64,000 nucleotides of DNA from Rouxiella badensis (GTDB taxonomy: Bacteria > Pseudomonadota > Gammaproteobacteria > Enterobacterales > Enterobacteriaceae): assembly GCF_002093665.1 (NCBI RefSeq), contig NZ_MRWE01000015.1, forward strand, positions 54,805-118,804, in the 5' to 3' direction. Below are positions 9,277-17,968 of the stretch, piece after piece. The number at the start of each line of letters is the position of its first letter. Within the stretch, counting starts at the first letter, position 1. The notes under the pieces were generated by a model that did not search any database, had not been told where the DNA came from, and saw only the letters and a list, made by a program, of their open reading frames with translations. The position numbers were made by a program, and so were the translations under genes.

Positions 9277-10191
9277 CTAATCAGAAGGCGTGAGGTAAAG
9301 CTGGCGCAACTTTCTCTCGAGGTCGTCCACAAACAGCCTGACGCGCGCCGAGAGGCCGCTGTCCGATTTGAATAAAACCCAGGAATGATAGGTGTCCATC
9401 TTCCAGTCAGGCAACAGCCGCACCAGCTTGCCTTCGTGTACTGACTCCTGAGCAATGTAGTCCGGCAGGTAGGCAATACCGCCTCCGGCCATCGCCGAAC
9501 TCATCAAAGCCACGCTGTTGTTCATTCTGAAACGGCTGCGCACCTCAATATCCAGCTTCTGCTTGTCTTTATAAAAAGGTAATGAAATCGTGTGTGCTGG
9601 CCCACGGAACAGGATGTAGTCGTGGCGCGGCAAATCTTCCGGCTTGGTTATTTTTGCCAGTCGGGCAACGTATTTGGGCGCGGCGTAAAGACCCCAGGTG
9701 ATTGGAATCAAAGGTTTTATCTGTGCGGCTTCCGGCCTGTCGCGGGTGATGACAATCGCGATATCATAGAGCTCATCGGCCATATTGACCGGTCGATCGG
9801 TTAAGTCCAGGTCAACGTTGACGTGAATATTGTTATTTATATAGTGGTTGAGCACCGGAACAACACATTGGCAGCCAAAGGTCACCGGGGCAATCAGGCG
9901 CAGATTGCCCATCGGCTCTTCGTGAAAGTGACGAATGAAATGCTCGGCACCCTTAATCTCATTCAGTATACGATTGCAGTACTGGTAGTAGCTCATCCCC
10001 ACGTCGGTGACCGCGATTTTACGCGTGGTGCGGTTCAACAGCTGCGCACCGAGTCTCACTTCAAGGCTGGCTATTTCTCGGCTCACAGAGGATTTCGAGA
10101 GCCGCAGTGATTTTGCGGCCTCGGTAAAGCTGAGTGTTTCAACCACGCGGGCAAACACCACCATCGCGGTAAGGTTTTCTATATTGTCCAT
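9277..10191 (-). CDS. LysR-family regulator at the 3' end of the Dpg operon
   Basis: A 304-residue LysR-type regulator. The helix-turn-helix is at about residues 10-65 (FTEAAKSLRLSKSSVSREIA), and the rest is a periplasmic-binding-protein-like effector domain. The subgroup features RLGAQLLNRTTRKIAVTDVG and YLPDYIAQE are those of the CrgA/DmlR-like branch. The ATG at 10191 lies 44 bases after the dpgD stop on the same strand, so it is probably the last gene of the dihydroxyphenylglycine operon and a candidate for its regulator. The operator-like palindromes at the other end of the operon (near 18000) are possible binding sites. That link is inference. Confidence 0.9.
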   Translation of the reverse strand: MDNIENLTAMVVFARVVETLSFTEAAKSLRLSKSSVSREIASLEVRLGAQLLNRTTRKIAVTDVGMSYYQYCNRILNEIKGAEHFIRHFHEEPMGNLRLIAPVTFGCQCVVPVLNHYINNNIHVNVDLDLTDRPVNMADELYDIAIVITRDRPEAAQIKPLIPITWGLYAAPKYVARLAKITKPEDLPRHDYILFRGPAHTISLPFYKDKQKLDIEVRSRFRMNNSVALMSSAMAGGGIAYLPDYIAQESVHEGKLVRLLPDWKMDTYHSWVLFKSDSGLSARVRLFVDDLERKLRQLYLTPSD

Positions 10192-10235
10192 CGACCAATC
10201 TAAGGTTTTTTAAAACATAAGATAAAATAACATAA

Positions 10236-11048
10236 TTATCTCCCGCACCAGACAGGATCTCTTTTTTCCAAAAATGCATCAACGCCTTCAACTAAATCCA
10301 GGCTCTGTAAACGCTGCTGCTCGGCGTAGTATTCAGCGGCAAAGGCCTGTTCCAGACTCTTGTCGGCGCTTTCATAGGCAATATTTTTAATCGCCTGAAT
10401 CGCCATCGGTGAACAGCGCAGGATATCTTGCGTGAGCTTATTCACCGCTTCATCAAGATTCTCTTTCGTCGTCACCTGATTCACCAGGCCAAATTCCAGT
10501 GCTTCACGGGCGGTGATCCTTTTACCGGTCAGCAGCATTTCCATCGCCTGTTTAAGCGGCATTTGTCGCGTCAGTCGGAAGATCCCGCCCGCGCCCTGAA
10601 TCAGGCCCAGCTTAGCCTCAGGCAGAGCGAAAACGGACTCCTCCGTTGCAACAATCAAATCGCAGGCCAGCGCCAGCTCAAAGCCGCCTCCGAAGGCATA
10701 ACCGTCGACCTTGGCAATCACCGGTTTATGGATGTCGAAACGCTCGGTAAATCTCGGCCATCCGGCACGACCGCCGCTGCCCAGACTCGACGGTGGCTCA
10801 CCGGCCTCATAGCGCAGCTTGAGTTCTTTGAGATCCTGTCCCACCGAAAAGGCGCGGCCCCCCTCGCCCGCCAGCACCACCACCCAGACATCAGCGTCCT
10901 GATTCACCGTTTCCCATACCGCCAGCAGTTGGCGGTGCATCTCGAGATTCATGGCGTTAAGTACGTCAGGACGGTTAAGGGTGATATACGCCACCCGCCC
11001 CCGTTTTTGGTACTGCACCGCCTGAGGATTTTCATCCTGCTTGGTCAT
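10236..11048 (-). CDS. dpgD: DpgD: enoyl-CoA hydratase-like enzyme of Dpg biosynthesis
   Basis: A 270-residue crotonase-fold protein. The oxyanion-hole segments RAFSVGQDLKEL and KVDGYAFGGGFELALACDL are intact, as are FALPEAKLGLIQGAGG and the C-terminal hydratase helix. In the glycopeptide pathway DpgD, with DpgB, dehydrates and aromatises the tetraketide made by DpgA to give 3,5-dihydroxyphenylacetyl-CoA. Taken alone this could be any enoyl-CoA hydratase. The assignment rests on its place next to dpgC, dpgB and dpgA in the order A-B-C-D known from actinobacterial clusters. The ATG at 11048 has AGGAGAG upstream, 15 bases after the dpgC stop. Confidence 0.85.
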   Translation of the reverse strand: MTKQDENPQAVQYQKRGRVAYITLNRPDVLNAMNLEMHRQLLAVWETVNQDADVWVVVLAGEGGRAFSVGQDLKELKLRYEAGEPPSSLGSGGRAGWPRFTERFDIHKPVIAKVDGYAFGGGFELALACDLIVATEESVFALPEAKLGLIQGAGGIFRLTRQMPLKQAMEMLLTGKRITAREALEFGLVNQVTTKENLDEAVNKLTQDILRCSPMAIQAIKNIAYESADKSLEQAFAAEYYAEQQRLQSLDLVEGVDAFLEKRDPVWCGR

Positions 11049-11063
11049 TACGCTCTCCTGCTT

Positions 11064-12302
11064 TCAACCCAGTTTCGCCTTTTGAGCAAATTTGCCGGTT
11101 TTTTCCCTGACATCGCGAGAATACATTCTGATGACCTGTTCGGTACAGAAGCTCGCCATATAGTGTCTGAAGGCCGATAAAGGCTCTTTCGAAAGCGAAA
11201 TCATTCGCTTATTGGCCGGAACTGCCGGCGCAGCCATCAGTTCGACGGCGTCGGCCAACGCTCCGTCCAGCTCTTGCGACGTCACCACCTGGTCAAAAAT
11301 ATAATCTGAATAGGCAGCGCCCGCATAGATTTGTTCACCATGCAAAATGACCCGCTTGGCAAACCGCTCGGTGGTGGCCGCCGTCAGGCGCAGATTGGAA
11401 ACGCCGGGGATAATGCCCTCTTTGGCGGCAGGCAACGAGGCATAGCTGCCCGTTTCCGCAATCACATAATCGCAGGCCAGGACCATCTGCATGCCGCCAC
11501 CGATGGCAAAAGTATCGACCACCGCAATCCAGGGTTTAACGGCTCTGCTGACAAGATTAGGCGTCGGATATGTCACGCCGTGGATAAGCTTGTTGAGGCA
11601 TGCCATCTCTCGGCCAATGAGAAAACCGGCGTAGGATATTTCGCCGCTGTGCAGCTTTTTCAAATTAATACCGGAGCAGAAGACCCTCTTGCCAGCATAT
11701 TTGGGATGGGTGACTTCTCCTCCGCGCAGTACGCCGACCTTGATATCTGGCGACAAGCAGAGGATATCTATAGCCGTTTCTAAATCATCGACAAATTCCC
11801 CATCTTCGGCGTTGAGATTATGGCCATTGAGGAAGGTGATGACCGCCGCCTCGCCCTCCCGCGTCATCTCCAGCGACGCCAGACGAAGCCTGCCATCGGC
11901 GGCAAACGGCCTCATCAGAGACAGCGAAAGCGCCTTTGGCTCAAGCTGGGCATGCAGCAGGTGTGTTCCATGGTCTTCACTCTGTAGCACCTGCTGCAGG
12001 AACAGTGAAAAACAGTAGTCGGCAACGACGCGCACATCACTGACTGTGGTTTGCGGCGCGAAAAGCACAGAGAACGTCCTTTCAAACAGGTCCGTCACCC
12101 GCAGCGAACGGGAGTAAAGTGCGGTCCAATGCTCATACAGTGCCAACGCATTTTCCTCAAAAAAGGCCTGGATTTGCCTGTCTTGATTGCAGCGTTCGAT
12201 TTGCGTTTCGCTCGGCGTATCCGCCGTCAATGCCAGTTCGGCCAGCCGTGATTTCACCCGTTTGGCCGCGTTGTTTAAGGTTTCAGTTATCAGGTCGGAC
12301 AT
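11064..12302 (-). CDS. dpgC: DpgC: cofactor-free 3,5-dihydroxyphenylacetyl-CoA 1,2-dioxygenase
   Basis: A 412-residue protein: a helical N-terminal domain of about 170 residues followed by a crotonase domain. This long architecture is distinctive of DpgC, which oxidises 3,5-dihydroxyphenylacetyl-CoA with O2, without metal or flavin, to 3,5-dihydroxyphenylglyoxylate and free CoA. Visible crotonase elements are KRVFCSGINLKKLHSG, AVDTFAIGGGMQMVLACDYV and YASLPAAKEGIIPGVSNLRL, the last two shaping the oxyanion hole and pocket. The ATG at 12302 follows GAGAGG, ten bases after the dpgB stop. I could not check individual catalytic residues against the crystal structure by alignment. Confidence 0.9.
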   Translation of the reverse strand: MSDLITETLNNAAKRVKSRLAELALTADTPSETQIERCNQDRQIQAFFEENALALYEHWTALYSRSLRVTDLFERTFSVLFAPQTTVSDVRVVADYCFSLFLQQVLQSEDHGTHLLHAQLEPKALSLSLMRPFAADGRLRLASLEMTREGEAAVITFLNGHNLNAEDGEFVDDLETAIDILCLSPDIKVGVLRGGEVTHPKYAGKRVFCSGINLKKLHSGEISYAGFLIGREMACLNKLIHGVTYPTPNLVSRAVKPWIAVVDTFAIGGGMQMVLACDYVIAETGSYASLPAAKEGIIPGVSNLRLTAATTERFAKRVILHGEQIYAGAAYSDYIFDQVVTSQELDGALADAVELMAAPAVPANKRMISLSKEPLSAFRHYMASFCTEQVIRMYSRDVREKTGKFAQKAKLG

Positions 12303-12312
12303 CGTCTGCCTC

Positions 12313-12954
12313 TCAGCCTTTTCTCATGATTCGGTCGCTGGCCGAAAGCGACAGACCCAGTGTTTCATCGTATGAGGCGGTGCTCGCCTCAAGGATAAGC
12401 TTGCGACGCACGCGGATATCATTAAAGGCGTGTGGATTAAGTCCAAAAATAATGTCTTCGGTCAACGCCTGCGGCTGACTGGCTAGACGATCTAGCAGCC
12501 CATTGGCTTCGGCCTCTTCGGCGGACCAGCGGTTGCCAAGCAGCAGCAGTGAACGTAACCCGTTGGCATTTAACTGCTGGGTCAGGCGGTGAATCAGCAT
12601 CCCCGGTACCGTGACCTCTTTGCCGTTCAAGCCGAAAGAGGACGCGGGGGTTCCAATACGAAGGTCAGAGACGGCCAGTATCGACATCGCTGCCAGCGAG
12701 AGTTCGCCTTCACAGTGAGCAACAATCAGCGCATTGACATTCTCAAGGCGTCGCAGGCTTTTCTCCCATTTGTGCAGCAGCGCAACGTCGGCGATGGCTT
12801 CACCAGCGTCGGCCCCTGAGGTCTTGCCAAAGGTAAAGCCAACGACTTTTACCTGCTCGTCGGCCTCGGCCTGCGCGCAAAGCTGGTTAATTTTTTCGAT
12901 AAGCTCGACCGAAATTGATGCAGTATCTTCGATATTCATGTTCAGACGTTCCAT
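12313..12954 (-). CDS. dpgB: DpgB: enoyl-CoA hydratase/isomerase-like Dpg biosynthesis protein
   Basis: A 213-residue, shortened crotonase-like protein. The family resemblance is clear in the central HCEGELSLAAMSILAVSDLR and SFGLNGKEVTVPGMLIHRL, but the glycine-rich oxyanion loops of ordinary hydratases are weak, as is usual for DpgB. In actinobacteria DpgB improves the rate and fidelity with which DpgA product is converted to dihydroxyphenylacetyl-CoA, together with DpgD. The ATG at 12954 has AGAGGTG upstream. It lies between dpgA (58-base gap) and dpgC (10-base gap). The assignment rests on its size, its weak crotonase signature and the gene order. Confidence 0.85.
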   Translation of the reverse strand: MERLNMNIEDTASISVELIEKINQLCAQAEADEQVKVVGFTFGKTSGADAGEAIADVALLHKWEKSLRRLENVNALIVAHCEGELSLAAMSILAVSDLRIGTPASSFGLNGKEVTVPGMLIHRLTQQLNANGLRSLLLLGNRWSAEEAEANGLLDRLASQPQALTEDIIFGLNPHAFNDIRVRRKLILEASTASYDETLGLSLSASDRIMRKG

Positions 12955-13012
12955 AACACACCTCTTTAAAATGGGTTGAATTCAATCGTGGGTTCAAAAG
13001 AAACGAGGAGCT

Positions 13013-14098
13013 TTATTCGGCCCACTGTACCAAGGCCGTTTCGATGGCCGCGCCGGGTCCCATGGTCATTAGCACCCCAAGGTCACCCTTGTTGGCGGTT
13101 TTTTCATTCTGTAAGCGCTCCAGCGAGAACAGGAAGGATCCGCTGGATAAATTACCGAAATCGTTCAATACGCTGCGCGTATGGCGAAGGTCGTTCTTGG
13201 TCAGCCCCAGATTGATGCAGATGGAGTCGATAACCTTCTTGCCGCCCGAGTGGACAATCCAATGGTCGATATCGCTTACGCTAAGCGACCGTTCGCCGAG
13301 TAGCCTGTTGATGACCTTCTCAACCTTGGAACCCACTACGTAAGGCACATCCTTCGAGAGATAAAAACTGTTCTTGTGCTGCTCGTCGTTCCAGTCGAAC
13401 TTCATCATGCCTATCCCCTCTGACTCCGTCAGGCTGAGCTTGTCGAGCAGTCGAACAGCGCCAGCGGGCAGGATTTTGTCTGCGGGTTCAGACACCACGG
13501 CCGCCGCGCTGGCACCGTCACCAAACAGGCTGTTGACCACCGAGGTCGCTATCGTGCCGTCTTCGAGGTAGGCGGCCGAACAGATTTCGGTGCAAACCAC
13601 GATGGCCAGTTTGCCTGGATTGACCACCGACCAGTTTTTGACCGCATCGAGGCCATTTAGACCCGCAGAGCAGCCCATGCCAACAATATCGATGCGGTTA
13701 CAAAACTCGGAGAGGCCCAGCGACTGACAAAATCGGGCGCTTAATGCCGGTACCAGAAAGCCGGTCGAGGTCACGCAGCAAATGCAGGCGATGTCCTCAA
13801 CGGTTTTACCGATTTTAGTCAGGCATTTATTGATGGCATTCGCACCCAGTTCAAGCGCGGAATATTCATGACGGTTCAGCATTTCACCGTGTGACTCGGC
13901 GTTAGGCTCACTCTTTGCCATCTCTTTTATCGACAAATGACGTTTGCTAATGCCGCTATTAATAAATATCGAGCGAATACGACCGTCTTTTATCCCCAAA
14001 TTGTCACAGACTTCATGCTGGGTATAGGAGGTTTCAGGAACGTCATGCGCACAGGCTAAAATATAGGGGGCATGGGAATCACGGGTATTTATATTCAT
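13013..14098 (-). CDS. dpgA: DpgA: type III polyketide synthase (3,5-dihydroxyphenylacetyl-CoA synthase)
   Basis: A 361-residue chalcone-synthase-like enzyme. The thiolase-fold triad is visible: Cys143 in GMGCSAGLNG, His283 in WIVHSGGKK and Asn316 in NDFGNLSSGSFLF. The C-terminal motif MGPGAAIE is also present. DpgA condenses four malonyl-CoA units and cyclises them to the precursor of 3,5-dihydroxyphenylacetyl-CoA. Type III synthases are uncommon in Enterobacterales. Its place before dpgB, dpgC and dpgD argues for DpgA rather than a chalcone-synthase or PhlD paralogue. The ATG at 14098 overlaps the aminotransferase stop by four bases and has a GGAGAG ribosome site. Confidence 0.92.
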   Translation of the reverse strand: MNINTRDSHAPYILACAHDVPETSYTQHEVCDNLGIKDGRIRSIFINSGISKRHLSIKEMAKSEPNAESHGEMLNRHEYSALELGANAINKCLTKIGKTVEDIACICCVTSTGFLVPALSARFCQSLGLSEFCNRIDIVGMGCSAGLNGLDAVKNWSVVNPGKLAIVVCTEICSAAYLEDGTIATSVVNSLFGDGASAAAVVSEPADKILPAGAVRLLDKLSLTESEGIGMMKFDWNDEQHKNSFYLSKDVPYVVGSKVEKVINRLLGERSLSVSDIDHWIVHSGGKKVIDSICINLGLTKNDLRHTRSVLNDFGNLSSGSFLFSLERLQNEKTANKGDLGVLMTMGPGAAIETALVQWAE

Positions 14099-15336
14099 AG
14101 AAATCTCTCCTTTAAAAACTTGCAGAATTCTCGCGTGCCCTGCTCGATAATTTCAGGCTCGTAATAGCTAAAGGCCAGTCGGATCCCGTTAATCACTTTG
14201 CCTTCTCGTCGAGAGAAATAACTAACCGGCATAAAGGTGACCTGATAATTCTCGACGCAGTGAATTAAATCCTTTGAGGTGATTGAAAACGGTAATTTCA
14301 GGAACACAAAGAATCCACCTTGCGGGGGTTGCCATTTAATTGGCGAGCCATCCAATTCACTTTGCAGCACCTCGACCATGGCATTTCGGCGACGTTGATA
14401 TTCTTCACGGATGGGACGTACCCAAGCCTCCACCGAGTACCCGTAGTGAATTAAAAACCCTGCCACGATTTGCTGATTCAGTGCGCTGGTGCTCAGGCTG
14501 GTGTGGTCTTTAATATGCAGTATATCGGCGCGCGTCGCGGCGTCTGACTGATTAAGGATTAGATACCCCAAACGCAGCGACGGGCACATCACCTTGGAGA
14601 AGGATCCCACGTAGTACACCAGCCCATGCGGGTCCTGCGACTTAATGGAGTGACCGCGCTCTCCGTCAAAATAGAAGCCAGAATAGGTACTGTCTTCGAT
14701 AATCTTGACCCCGTTTTGATGACACACTGCCAACAGCGTTGCCTTCTCAGACTCGGACAAACGGTAAGTCATTGGGTTATTAAAGTCAGGATTGATATAA
14801 AGGAGTCTGGTGTTTTTACCCTGGCTTTTAAACTCGGCGATAAGCGCGGTCAGATTCTCAAACTGGAAAGCGCCCGCCTCGTCACTGACGTCATTAACGG
14901 AGACCGTGACCGACGATTTCCCTAACACGGAAACACAATCATTAAAACCAAAATAGGTTGGCTCAATAATCAATACGCAATCACTCTCCTCGCGTAATTC
15001 ATGCAGAAGAATAAGGTTATAGGCTTCCTGACATCCGTTGGTAATAAAGATGTCATTTTCGGCGGCGTGGATATTTTCATCAATGGATAACCACCGCGAA
15101 ACATGGCCATTAATAACCCCCTGACTCGGCCCATAGGTACACAAATGTTCATTAATGTCTTTCTGATTATGACTAAACATTTCATCAAGCGTATTTTTAT
15201 AGACCTGACGATAGTGTTCAAAATCAAGCAATGCATAAACCTCGGGATTGGGCCTGCCCAATGAGAACGAGCAAGCCTGCGGGTACTTCCTCGAGAGAAA
15301 GCTTACCGTTGATAATATACTCTCTTCGCTATTCAT
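14095..15336 (-). CDS. hpgT: HpgT-type PLP aminotransferase (arylglycine-forming)
   Basis: A 413-residue fold-type I aminotransferase. The PLP lysine is Lys248 in YVGSFSKVMCPSLRLGYL, with upstream NPDFNNPM and EDSTYSGFYFDGE forming the cofactor site. The likely reaction is transfer of an amino group, as from tyrosine in the known HpgT, to 3,5-dihydroxyphenylglyoxylate, giving Dpg. I place the start at the ATG at 15336 (MNSEESIL), preceded by GGAAAT; a longer reading from 15384 would need GTG and lacks a ribosome site. The protein also resembles KAT/MocR-type aminotransferases, so the substrate assignment depends on the four-base coupling to dpgA and on the gene set. Confidence 0.85.
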   Translation of the reverse strand: MNSEESILSTVSFLSRKYPQACSFSLGRPNPEVYALLDFEHYRQVYKNTLDEMFSHNQKDINEHLCTYGPSQGVINGHVSRWLSIDENIHAAENDIFITNGCQEAYNLILLHELREESDCVLIIEPTYFGFNDCVSVLGKSSVTVSVNDVSDEAGAFQFENLTALIAEFKSQGKNTRLLYINPDFNNPMTYRLSESEKATLLAVCHQNGVKIIEDSTYSGFYFDGERGHSIKSQDPHGLVYYVGSFSKVMCPSLRLGYLILNQSDAATRADILHIKDHTSLSTSALNQQIVAGFLIHYGYSVEAWVRPIREEYQRRRNAMVEVLQSELDGSPIKWQPPQGGFFVFLKLPFSITSKDLIHCVENYQVTFMPVSYFSRREGKVINGIRLAFSYYEPEIIEQGTREFCKFLKERFL

Positions 15337-15440
15337 TATTATTTCCAAATTCGTTATTCCGTATTGCAGGCATGGGGGAGCCACGGCGTTGCACCGGATT
15401 AATCGCTTATTTATTTTAAAATGTTACATCAATGGGGTGA

Positions 15441-16682
15441 TTAACTAATAATATCGAATATTTTTCCTTCGCTCTGCCAGGTTAATATTTGCTGGAAATC
15501 CTGCTCCAGTTGCGTTTTATTGTCATTAACCAAATAGACAAATCCCGGCAGGCCTTTGGTATCCGTCGTTTTCTTCACCTGCTGCCCCAGCGTCGGTAAT
15601 CCGAAGAAGTTAGAGAATGAAGGCAGATTTTCGATGGCTTCACGTGCCGGCATTCCCGCCAACAGGCCATCACCGGTAAACAGGAACGACACCTCGGAAA
15701 CGCCAGACAACAGCCTGTAGTCTTTACCCACTAATTCATTCAGGAAACGGCCCGGTTCAAGATACATCTCCACGCAGCGGCTTACCTGCGTATAGCCTAA
15801 ACAGCGTGTGAAAGACTCTTCATTGATAGAAGCGCCCATCAGCCGAGCGTTAGCCTCAATTAATACCGGCCCTTCTGAGGTCAGGATAATCTCGTTATGC
15901 GCCGCGCCATAGTTTACGCCGAGTGCAGACAGTACGTCGCAGGCATAGGATGACAGCAGATGCGCCGTTGGCTCATCGCCGGGGATAAGATGCATACCCT
16001 CAAAATTATAGGCACCGCCGTTAACCCGACTGCGGATCTGTTCCCAGATATCGGTCACGTGATGTTTACCGTTCCAGCTCAGGGTATTAACGAAGTACTG
16101 CACGCCATCAACCAGTTCCTGAATCAGCAGCTCTTCATTCACATAGCCAAGAAGATTCTTTTGACCCAGCTGTTTTGCGGCCGCCTGCGCCACCTCTTTC
16201 GCGTTTTCACACAGCGTAACCCCGTCACTCGCCCCACTGTTTAGCGGTTTGACGATAACCGGATAACCACAGCATTCATTTGCCCAGTTAACCAACGCCT
16301 CTGCCGACGAAGATTTAAACTGTTTGATTGAACGAAGCCCGTTTTCCGCTAATACCTGATGCGAGTGGTACTTGTTTCTTCGCCAGGCCGTGGTCTCAGG
16401 ACTGTTTCCCTCAACAATACCCATCATCGAGGCCAACATGTCGGCCAACTCAATCCCACTGTCAGAGCCAGCAATAACGTAGCGAATATCGTACTTTCTG
16501 AGCCTTGAAACTATCTGCTCGCACGAGCCCTCATACTTTATCGTTTCCACGAACCCGCTGACTCTGGTTTGACGTGTGAAATCATTCCAGACATGAACAA
16601 CGCGGTATCCGCTCTCCATAAACTTCTTCGCCAGCTCGTTGCCGGTCGACAATGCATCAACAATCGCGACTGTGTTTAACAC
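15441..16682 (-). CDS. ATP-grasp carboxylate-amine ligase (candidate Dpg-amide/dipeptide ligase)
   Basis: A 413-residue ATP-grasp enzyme, probably cytoplasmic. The ATP-binding lysine and flexible loop are in PVIVKPLNSGASDGVTL, the adenine-proximal strand is LLIQELVDGVQYFVNTLSW, and the Mg-ligand pair is in GPVLIEANARLMGA (ExN). This is the layout of L-amino-acid ligases such as BacD and DdaF, which join two amino acids through an acyl phosphate. I start it at the GTG at 16682, because a near-perfect AGGAGGAG lies seven bases upstream; the longer reading from 16706 puts that site inside the gene. In this operon the obvious candidate substrate is Dpg. The partner is unknown. Confidence 0.85.
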   Translation of the reverse strand: MLNTVAIVDALSTGNELAKKFMESGYRVVHVWNDFTRQTRVSGFVETIKYEGSCEQIVSRLRKYDIRYVIAGSDSGIELADMLASMMGIVEGNSPETTAWRRNKYHSHQVLAENGLRSIKQFKSSSAEALVNWANECCGYPVIVKPLNSGASDGVTLCENAKEVAQAAAKQLGQKNLLGYVNEELLIQELVDGVQYFVNTLSWNGKHHVTDIWEQIRSRVNGGAYNFEGMHLIPGDEPTAHLLSSYACDVLSALGVNYGAAHNEIILTSEGPVLIEANARLMGASINEESFTRCLGYTQVSRCVEMYLEPGRFLNELVGKDYRLLSGVSEVSFLFTGDGLLAGMPAREAIENLPSFSNFFGLPTLGQQVKKTTDTKGLPGFVYLVNDNKTQLEQDFQQILTWQSEGKIFDIIS

Positions 16683-16789
16683 TCGATCCTCCTCCTGGAT
16701 GGACACCCCGTTTTAAGACATGCCAATTAAAACCAAATAGGTAAAATACTTAAGAAAAATTAATTAATATTGATAGCAAATTGTTAGCA

Positions 16790-17968
16790 TTAGGCGTCTT
16801 TAACGCGCAATAACAGGAAAAGCGCCAGCAGCGAAACGGCCATTGCCAGCCAGTAAACGGCCTGATGCCCAAACTGCTCGCTTGCTGCCCCCTGCATCAA
16901 TCCTGCAAAGATGGCACCGGTGGCAATGCTGTTGGTGTAAAGCGTGCTGGCGGTTCCGGGGGAGCCAGGCAACAGCTCCTGCAGATAAAGCATGCCAATT
17001 CCACCAACAATGCCAATAAAAGCCGCATTAAGCAGCTGTATCGCCACCAGCGCCAGCGGCGAATTCACCGTCGCCATGCCGGTATAAAACAGCGCGGCGC
17101 AAAGCGCAGCCACCAGCATCATTGGCCTTTTGCCAAAACGCGTCACAAGCGGCGTACAGAACAGCATAATGAGGATTTCAAAACCTGCGGCACCGCCCAG
17201 CAACCAGCCTGCAAACCCCTCGGCAACGCCATGCATTCCGCTGACATAGACAGGCATATCGATGAGATACATCGTATCGCTGCCCCACAGCAGGGCCAGA
17301 GCGGCAAATAGACAGCCGACACCCCGATTCTTGGTTGCCCTGTGCATTCCTGCGCCTTTGGCGGCCTGCACAGGAGCAGCATGAAGCGCAGGCAACAGCG
17401 TCAGTACCAGAACGATACTGAGGGCAAACAGGAGAGCCACGGTGAGATACAGAGCGGTGAAACCAAAATGTGCGAGAGTAAAAAACGCCACCGGCGGAGC
17501 AATAATCCACGAAAGCGAGATCTGTACCCGCATACGCGTGCTGAACTTCACCACCTCACAGCCTGCTTCATCGGCGTACTGGCGCGCCAACGCAAACAGC
17601 TGCGGCATGGCGGTCGTGGCGAGTGAAGTCATCACCACGCCAAGCGTTAGCAGCGTCATGTAGTGTCGATTAAAAGCAAACAGCAGGGCGTTGAGGACGG
17701 CAATGGTGCAGCAGCCTAGGATCAGCAGGCGACGGTTACCGCCTGCGTCAGAGCGTCGCGCCAAAACTTGGCTAACGCCGACGCCTGCAATGGCGTTAAC
17801 GGTATAGAAAATACCGACCATCATTGGGCTGGCACCGGTACCACGGGTGAGGAAAAGGCTGACAACGGGCATCTGCAGCGCCCCCGCAACGCCTAATATC
17901 AGCGCAACCGCCATGAAAGCAACATTGACAATTTGACTGTTGCCGACGGCCCGCTCTTGCAACTCCAT
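16790..17968 (-). CDS. SetB-like MFS exporter, first gene of the Dpg operon
   Basis: A 392-residue inner-membrane protein with 12 hydrophobic segments, close in length and pattern to the E. coli Set sugar-efflux family. Shared features include GVAGALQMPVVSLFL near the start, TAMPQLFALARQYAD in the middle, LLNAAFIGIVGGIGMLYLQ and the C-terminal LLRVKDA. Set proteins export sugars and glycoside-like compounds by H+ antiport. As the first gene of the dihydroxyphenylglycine operon it is well placed to export the final product or give self-protection. AGGGAG precedes the ATG at 17968. Two operator-like palindromes lie upstream. Cotranscription with the ligase gene (107-base gap) is likely but not proven. 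Confidence 0.88.
   Translation of the reverse strand: MELQERAVGNSQIVNVAFMAVALILGVAGALQMPVVSLFLTRGTGASPMMVGIFYTVNAIAGVGVSQVLARRSDAGGNRRLLILGCCTIAVLNALLFAFNRHYMTLLTLGVVMTSLATTAMPQLFALARQYADEAGCEVVKFSTRMRVQISLSWIIAPPVAFFTLAHFGFTALYLTVALLFALSIVLVLTLLPALHAAPVQAAKGAGMHRATKNRGVGCLFAALALLWGSDTMYLIDMPVYVSGMHGVAEGFAGWLLGGAAGFEILIMLFCTPLVTRFGKRPMMLVAALCAALFYTGMATVNSPLALVAIQLLNAAFIGIVGGIGMLYLQELLPGSPGTASTLYTNSIATGAIFAGLMQGAASEQFGHQAVYWLAMAVSLLALFLLLRVKDA

Follow-up and report, generated by a model that had tools for sequence, protein, structure and literature searches.

A predicted dihydroxyphenylglycine operon with an ATP-grasp ligase in Rouxiella badensis

Gene content and layout of the locus

The window, a 64,000-nucleotide stretch of a Rouxiella badensis contig, carries a run of eight genes whose products include relatives of the enzymes for 3,5-dihydroxyphenylglycine (Dpg), an uncommon amino acid familiar mainly from antibiotics of the vancomycin type. 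From the first to the last gene, the run comprises the following features.

16790..17968, minus strand: MFS exporter (SetA/SetB-like), first gene of the run
15441..16706, minus strand: ATP-grasp ligase, above the cut-off of PRK07206
14095..15339, minus strand: HpgT-type PLP aminotransferase, ATG start; a GTG at 15384 is a possible alternative
13013..14098, minus strand: DpgA, type III polyketide synthase, predicted 3,5-dihydroxyphenylacetyl-CoA synthase (NF042429, catalytic triad, tree)
12313..12954, minus strand: DpgB, DpgA helper of the enoyl-CoA hydratase superfamily (NF042431)
11064..12302, minus strand: DpgC, predicted cofactor-free dioxygenase (NF042432, 2NP9)
10236..11048, minus strand: DpgD, enoyl-CoA hydratase-type DpgA helper (NF042430)
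9277..10191, minus strand: LysR regulator, a backbone gene of the genus, outside the conserved block

The open frames of all eight genes match exactly, on a single strand, the ends given by the original prediction, and the short gaps or overlaps it described are present as well. By their coordinates, the aminotransferase and DpgA frames overlap by 4 bases, and the remaining gaps measure 10 to 101 bases. Promoter and terminator scans yielded no more sites than shuffled sequences did. The arrangement is far beyond chance: the seven-gene order exporter, ligase, aminotransferase, DpgA, DpgB, DpgC, DpgD recurs in a Serratia genome (57-85% identity) and the order from ligase to DpgD recurs in a Pseudoalteromonas genome, there with two genes inserted. 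In the Serratia locus, dpgA is split over two frames. A spare arginyl-tRNA synthetase gene lies beside the Pseudoalteromonas operon. With the window's own proteins included, the nearest relatives numbered 9 for DpgA, 11 for the ligase, and 12 for the aminotransferase. The names given, where there were any, were those of Serratia, Pantoea allii, and Pseudoalteromonas or simply Gammaproteobacteria. Judged by length, six longest contigs are common to two or three of the relative lists.

The LysR gene had been predicted to be part of the block as well, which did not hold. It is 85-93% identical in all five sister genomes, every one of which lacks dpgA, and it was not observed next to the dpg genes of Serratia or Pseudoalteromonas. 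This backbone regulator may or may not control the dpg block.

The DpgA to DpgD proteins and the aminotransferase

In a profile search, DpgA scored 483 bits against the NF042429 cut-off of 425, and alignment confirmed the predicted catalytic residues Cys143, His283, and Asn316. The protein shares 50-52% identity with four reference DpgA proteins, versus 24-31% with the other type III synthases encountered. A scan of a collection of genome contigs with DpgA gave five loci, all of them distant synthases with 24-26% identity. Both identity and family score led us to reject descent of DpgA from PhlD or chalcone-like synthases. DpgD likewise exceeded its cut-off (410.6 bits versus 400 for NF042430). 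DpgB, at 135.4 bits, fell about 5 bits short of the NF042431 cut-off of 140, which its Serratia orthologue surpassed with 150.1 bits. DpgC scored 376.2 bits against an equivalog cut-off of 530 (NF042432), yet this model was its top match and the next one reached 87 bits. Hence, the outcome that had been named in advance as speaking against a Dpg pathway, DpgA grouping with PhlD or chalcone-like synthases and DpgC with ordinary hydratases, did not occur.

The window DpgC matched the solved DpgC structure 2NP9 with 263 bits. In the alignment, E166, I212, R231, G269, and Q272 agree with five 2NP9 positions which we take to be substrate or oxyanion contact residues. The glutamate, arginine, glycine, and glutamine are identical in all seven DpgC rows compared, and the isoleucine is replaced by valine in one of them (Nonomuraea), whereas the two DpgD rows have M, Q, G, G, and E in their place. 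With the score below the cut-off but the DpgC model far ahead of the next, we claim that the window protein would work like DpgC; membership of the DpgC equivalog is not claimed. A changed specificity of the diverged DpgC and DpgB is possible, because DpgC lies well below the equivalog cut-off and DpgB 5 bits short of its own.

The aminotransferase groups with the HpgT proteins of four dpg clusters on a branch (100/100) that separates them from 16 other transaminases. The tree contained 58 rows, namely, 52 of 120 listed proteins and 6 references; the other transaminases are only 16 of those listed. The alignment places the motif SFSK at position 246, with Lys249 inside it. That no HpgT model was matched is not counter-evidence, since the HpgT of Nonomuraea draws the same leading NCBIfam models as the window aminotransferase.

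An alternative to which we give little credence is that the diverged enzymes make a related aryl compound, such as 3,5-dihydroxyphenylacetate or -glyoxylate or another resorcinol, which the ligase amidates, and not Dpg. The DpgC proteins of the gammaproteobacterial clade reach only 361-406 bits against the cut-off of 530, and the aminotransferase is just 28-29% identical to reference HpgT, as this alternative would have it. However, the five DpgC contact positions are kept, and an aminotransferase of HpgT type, placed with HpgT in the tree, is present in all three loci (window, Serratia, and Pseudoalteromonas).

The glycopeptide Dpg pathway of Nonomuraea gerenzanensis L017 (dpgA to dpgD and hpgT) comprises the same five enzyme types in the same A-B-C-D order. 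Its proteins share 52% (DpgA), 30% (DpgB), 40% (DpgC), 55% (DpgD), and 28% (HpgT) identity with those of the window. The two loci differ in their surroundings: the cluster in Nonomuraea is presumably an NRPS cluster, whereas the window genes have a ligase as their neighbor and no NRPS. The original prediction had also suggested, from the gene order conserved across phyla, that the genes were transferred as a block; the DpgA tree does not show such a transfer from actinobacteria. In this tree, built from 38 of 120 listed proteins, 5 references, and 13 outgroups, the gammaproteobacterial clade (84/92) stands apart from 32 of the 33 other DpgA rows (93/97), with row P0014 unplaced. At depth, the tree carries little weight (outgroups sit on very long branches of about 5-10; 94/85 for DpgA versus the rest), and the one thing we take from it is that the gammaproteobacterial DpgA clade is not nested among the remaining DpgA proteins.

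The ligase and the proposed route to a Dpg peptide

The ligase scored 330.2 bits against the PRK07206 cut-off of 302, and its three PDB matches at an E value of 0.001 are all L-amino acid ligases. Its predicted structure (pLDDT 93) has BL00235 (3VOT), YwfE/BacD, and RizA as best folds, at 14-18% identity, and L-amino acid ligase folds occupy ranks 1-4, 6, and 7 in Foldseek and ranks 1-5 in VIA-align. E272, E284, and R288 are invariant in 33 sequences. The protein thus shares fold and sequence family with these enzymes and with DdaF of the dapdiamide pathway, but its score against the DdaF model, 197.3 bits, is far below the equivalog cut-off of 840. No blastp or phmmer match at an E value of 10 was detected between the ligase and two PGM1-related proteins of pheganomycin type, and PGM1 was absent from the 50 structural matches listed, which does not in itself speak against kinship. 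The family is wider than the dpg loci, and the substrate of the window ligase cannot be read from family membership, since there are members with no known dpg link in Xenorhabdus (47% identity) and Streptomyces (42%). Five more distant ligases showed 30-34% identity; for four of them, the neighborhoods, viewed as the starts of frames of at least 200 residues, gave no indication of substrate, and three of these four genomes were listed without a DpgA match.

From the observed homologies, gene order, and co-occurrence, with the chemistry modeled on the vancomycin pathway and on L-amino acid ligases, we are fairly confident that the six genes between 10236 and 16706 make Dpg and likely couple it to another amino acid, after which the MFS protein probably exports the product. 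DpgA, aided by DpgB and DpgD, would condense four malonyl-CoA into 3,5-dihydroxyphenylacetyl-CoA, which DpgC would convert with O2 and no cofactor into 3,5-dihydroxyphenylglyoxylate. The aminotransferase would turn this intermediate into Dpg. The ligase would then activate one carboxylate as an acyl phosphate, giving a dipeptide or pseudo-dipeptide that would leave the cell through the adjacent exporter.

The bacterium had been described as lacking an NRPS. This is correct for the operon, with no NRPS beside the dpg genes, and for its contig C11, where no condensation match was found, but not for the genome, which has six condensation matches on contigs C39 and C15. It is therefore conceivable, though in our view improbable, that the operon makes Dpg for loading by the unlinked NRPS on C39, the ligase having another task or tailoring the peptide. 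Large frames on C39 account for five of the six condensation matches, and the multimodular NRPS encoded there (2284 residues) was missing from all five sister genomes at an E value of 1e-100. Moreover, a PCP-condensation frame lies near the Pseudoalteromonas locus, close to the contig end, and Xanthomonas META-B pairs Dpg genes with an NRPS, according to PMC3849588. However, the constant neighbor of the dpg genes in the window, Serratia, and Pseudoalteromonas is the ligase and not an NRPS, and the longest listed frame in the 19.5-kb Serratia stretch, at 659 residues, encodes a sigma-54 activator. What stands of the original reading is a set of DpgA to DpgD and HpgT type beside an ATP-grasp ligase with no linked NRPS; the LysR, the NRPS-free genome, and the transfer do not.

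Neither of the two novelties attributed to the locus is without precedent. Dpg genes in a gammaproteobacterium were published in 2013 for META-B of Xanthomonas albilineans, which has DpgA, DpgB, DpgC, DpgD, and HpgT (PMC3849588). The surrounding locus there encodes an NRPS of 16 modules and an ABC transporter, and the order of the Dpg genes by locus tag is A-B-C-HpgT-D, unlike that of the window; the paper's section on META-B mentions no ATP-grasp ligase, whereas the window has one. The joining of a Dpg-type residue by an ATP-grasp ligase is likewise in print for pheganomycin (PMC8939145), and the same paper notes a pheganomycin-type locus without the NRPS gene in Streptomyces viridosporus. 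Dpg is known from large NRPS systems or from PGM1 peptide ligase clusters (PMC3849588, PMC8939145).

The pheganomycin-type clusters of Streptomyces globosus L046 and S. decoyicus L044 contain dpgABC, an aminotransferase, and an ATP-grasp peptide ligase, as the window does. They differ in carrying a glycine amidinotransferase gene together with genes for a RiPP precursor or an NRPS, all absent from the block of eight genes described here. Neither of the two Streptomyces stretches has an annotated dpgD, whereas the window has one. Resorcinomycin is a dipeptide of the pheganomycin kind; no paper on its cluster was found in the literature searched. Nor did that literature, which left out most subscription journals, contain a paper on an operon combining Dpg genes with such a ligase. 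If the proposed reading is true, the six genes, which combine a Dpg pathway with a ligase of BacD type, would form the smallest route to a Dpg peptide that we know of and would be easy to rebuild in laboratory Escherichia coli.

Exporter, sister genomes, and the history of the locus

The MFS protein reached 398.8 bits with TIGR00899, below the cut-off of 522.3, and is 68% identical to the MFS protein of the Serratia Dpg operon. Among 392 genomes of the family, 3 contain its subclade, and 2 of these 3 also have dpg genes; other matches were at most 55% identical. It is probably an exporter or immunity gene for the operon's product, judging by these relationships. A bolder idea, which we regard as a long shot, is a new family of antibiotics in Enterobacterales and Pseudoalteromonas that involves neither NRPS nor RiPP. 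Its product would be a Dpg dipeptide antimetabolite, made by the L-amino acid ligase and released by a dedicated MFS pump; related non-producers would keep the pump for immunity, and the spare arginyl-tRNA synthetase beside the Pseudoalteromonas operon would mark the target.

Two sister genomes, G115 and G392, have the exporter and LysR genes adjacent to each other, with a short dpgD-like stretch between them and none of the biosynthetic genes. Sister genomes with the exporter alone make a possible immunity role of this protein directly testable, and it is this stretch, together with the distribution of the exporter subclade, that is new here. Next to the LysR leader, the gap matches the 3' end of dpgD in 19 of 23 columns. 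We based the comparison on these 23 columns instead of 48 because the LysR leader motif also occurs in sister G219, a genome that lacks both the exporter and the dpg genes at this site. The stretch scores 30 in G115 and 32 in G392. Shuffled sequences attained these scores in 9 of 5,000 and 2 of 2,000 cases for G115 and in 0 of 2,000 for G392, and none of 18,244 control stretches did so. G219 scored 17, a value reached by 95 of 2,000 shuffles; for G351 and G291, the top-scoring piece gave 20. The stretch may be a deletion scar. This short sequence hints at an earlier presence of the operon in the genus, probably followed by its loss in the lineage of G115 and G392, with the exporter kept.

Alternatively, the six genes could have been inserted by transfer between a resident LysR gene and a resident exporter gene, so that the sisters represent the empty site. 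We consider this rather unlikely; it concerns history only and leaves the functional reading unaffected. The presence of dpgA in one of the six genomes of the genus, the direct adjacency of LysR and MFS genes in two sisters, and the leader motif shared with G219 are all in its favor. The dpgD-like stretch in the gap argues against it, as does the finding that elsewhere in the 392-genome sample the exporter subclade occurs only beside dpg genes. Also against it, the exporters of G115 and G392 are 66-67% identical to that of the window, versus 84-98% for the backbone genes of these two genomes. The MFS tree (six rows) did not resolve whether the window exporter pairs with that of Serratia or with those of the sisters.

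Gene content and family assignment of the run

As originally predicted, eight frames on the minus strand occupy the expected positions and follow one another, in transcription order, as exporter, ATP-grasp ligase, aminotransferase, DpgA, DpgB, DpgC, DpgD, and LysR. NCBIfam models named DpgA (483 bits versus a cut-off of 425) and DpgD (410.6 versus 400), and DpgB was marginally below its cut-off (135.4 versus 140). The top match of DpgC was the DpgC model, yet its score was far below the cut-off (376 versus 530). Since DpgC from the related Serratia and Pseudoalteromonas loci likewise remained below 530 (361 and 406 bits, respectively), the low score is a trait of the clade. Cys143, His283, and Asn316 of DpgA are retained, as are E166, I212, R231, G269, and Q272 of DpgC in an alignment with the solved DpgC 2NP9. 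These five are substrate or oxyanion contact residues of DpgC, their chain numbers being the published numbers plus two. Four of the five contact positions were invariant in six other DpgC rows, Ile being replaced by Val in one (Nonomuraea), whereas two DpgD rows were unlike DpgC at four of the five, with Gly common to both.

The aminotransferase drew no HpgT-specific model in the NCBIfam search; its leading models were the same as those of Nonomuraea HpgT, itself identified from its position near dpgA-D. In a tree of 58 aminotransferase rows, a 100/100 branch parted the HpgT side from 16 other transaminases. On this side were 14 rows that form the clade of the window protein, 17 that form a middle group, and 11 made up of HpgT from four dpg clusters together with seven relatives. 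The longest contigs of the middle-group proteins P0169 and P0170 equal in size those of the DpgA proteins P0022 and P0012, which suggests that these aminotransferases are linked to dpgA as well.

Proposed pathway and known systems

In the vancomycin pathway, DpgA, DpgB, and DpgD yield 3,5-dihydroxyphenylacetyl-CoA, DpgC converts it to the glyoxylate, and HpgT forms 3,5-dihydroxyphenylglycine (Dpg), a route also summarized in PMC3849588. By analogy, DpgA, DpgB, and DpgD of the window would convert malonyl-CoA to 3,5-dihydroxyphenylacetyl-CoA, DpgC would produce the glyoxylate, and the HpgT-type aminotransferase would generate Dpg. Ligases of the ATP-grasp type activate a carboxylate by phosphorylation and then condense it with an amine (PMC12568646); the ligase of the window is likely to turn Dpg into a dipeptide or pseudo-dipeptide, which would probably leave through the MFS protein. 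Relatives of this ligase with 40 to 47% identity (P0132 and P0140 to P0143) derive from Xenorhabdus, Streptomyces, Spartinivicinus, Idiomarina, and Vibrio.

There is precedent for each half of the idea: the gammaproteobacterium Xanthomonas albilineans likewise carries Dpg genes, but with an NRPS (META-B; PMC3849588), and pheganomycin of Streptomyces likewise combines a Dpg-type amino acid with an ATP-grasp ligase (PMC8939145; also annotated clusters). Unlike these systems, the window block has a different ligase family and host group and contains no amidinotransferase, RiPP precursor, or NRPS.

Distribution, borders, and history of the block

True DpgA was found in 2 of 392 family genomes (the window's own and Serratia G016) and in 2 of 394 genomes of the order sample (own and Pseudoalteromonas G619). 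Within the two family genera, dpgA occurs in one of six genomes of the window's genus and one of two of that of G016. Five more matches in the family sample (27 to 28% identity) were other type III synthases. Proteins of G016 were 98.6 to 99% identical to named Serratia proteins and those of G619 were 99.8 to 100% identical to Pseudoalteromonas JBTF-M23/caenipelagi proteins; Pantoea allii is also a source of named relatives. The Serratia order, MFS-ligase-aminotransferase-DpgA-B-C-D, is that of the window, with dpgA of G016 broken across two frames (L014:11727-12883). P0006, named from Serratia sp. Tan611, is a 376-residue relative with 20 member sequences. The Pseudoalteromonas order is ligase, methyltransferase, aminotransferase, DpgA, DpgB, DpgC, carbamoyltransferase, and DpgD; a flavin monooxygenase, a MATE pump, and an NRPS piece lie nearby.

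LysR, predicted to be an operon member, was reassigned to the backbone because it (85 to 93% identity) adjoins a gene that we take to be YciO-like (95 to 99%) in all five sister genomes, none of which has dpgA. In two of the five, G115 and G392, LysR is adjoined by an MFS gene 66 to 67% identical to that of the window, 63 bases from the called LysR frame and approximately 93 bases from the LysR start codon matching the window's. Among the 392 family genomes, a sample that does not include G392, this MFS subclade held only the window, G115, and Serratia operon proteins (67 to 68%), all others reaching at most 55%.

The gap beside the LysR leader in G115 and G392 matches the 3' end of window dpgD in 19 of 23 columns. 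Scores were 30 (G115) and 32 (G392), with shuffle means near 15. The G115 score was equalled or exceeded by 9 of 5,000 shuffles, 2 of 2,000 in a second run, and 0 of 18,244 control stretches of the window; that of G392 was equalled or exceeded by 0 of 2,000 shuffles. G219, where neither an exporter of this kind nor a dpg gene is present at the site, has the leader motif as well, and the candidate scar is therefore confined to the 23 columns. G219 as a control scored 17 (equalled or exceeded in 95 of 2,000 shuffles), and the best pieces of G351 and G291 scored 20. When the G115 piece was compared with dpgD ends from Serratia, Pseudoalteromonas, and Streptomyces cellulosae, it scored only 18, 17, and 12, so what it resembles is dpgD of the window itself. 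We read these sequence comparisons as pointing to an ancestor with the whole operon, from which the G115/G392 lineage would have dropped the biosynthetic genes and retained the exporter. Because the scar is short, insertion of the block into a resident exporter-LysR pair is a less probable alternative. If the genes were lost, this would have been one event, given that the G115 and G392 MFS proteins are 98% identical.

A PHO4-type phosphate transporter (window:18153-19877) lies between the exporter and an MsrA-like gene; sister genomes have different genes at its position, and the site thus looks variable. Also adjoining the operon is a putative efflux set, read by eye (window:2150-8290; outer-membrane-factor-like, EmrA-like, and EmrB-like genes with their own LysR), which is missing at the corresponding site in all five sisters.

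NRPS genes and a candidate resistance gene

Several points were counted against the Dpg-dipeptide reading: the DpgC score below and DpgB score bordering on the cut-off, the partial NRPS that lies close to the dpg genes of Pseudoalteromonas, and an unlinked NRPS on contig C39 of the window's genome that was not found in the five sisters. The C39 locus (G000:C39:12000-44336; L056 and L057) has NRPS frames of 2,284 and 1,894 residues and putative oxoamine-synthase-like and acyltransferase-like genes, with frame starts read by eye. Its family search used the condensation domain only; the 2,284-residue NRPS occurs in one of six genomes of the genus.

In Pseudoalteromonas, a full-length second arginyl-tRNA synthetase (L018:6349-8070; G619 C2:169723-170766) lies approximately 190 bases downstream of dpgD on the same strand and could be a self-resistance copy. 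It shares 67% identity with its counterpart on contig C28, and the window's genome and G016 have one copy each. Both Pseudoalteromonas enzymes are approximately 52% identical to the enterobacterial ones, neither being clearly more divergent.
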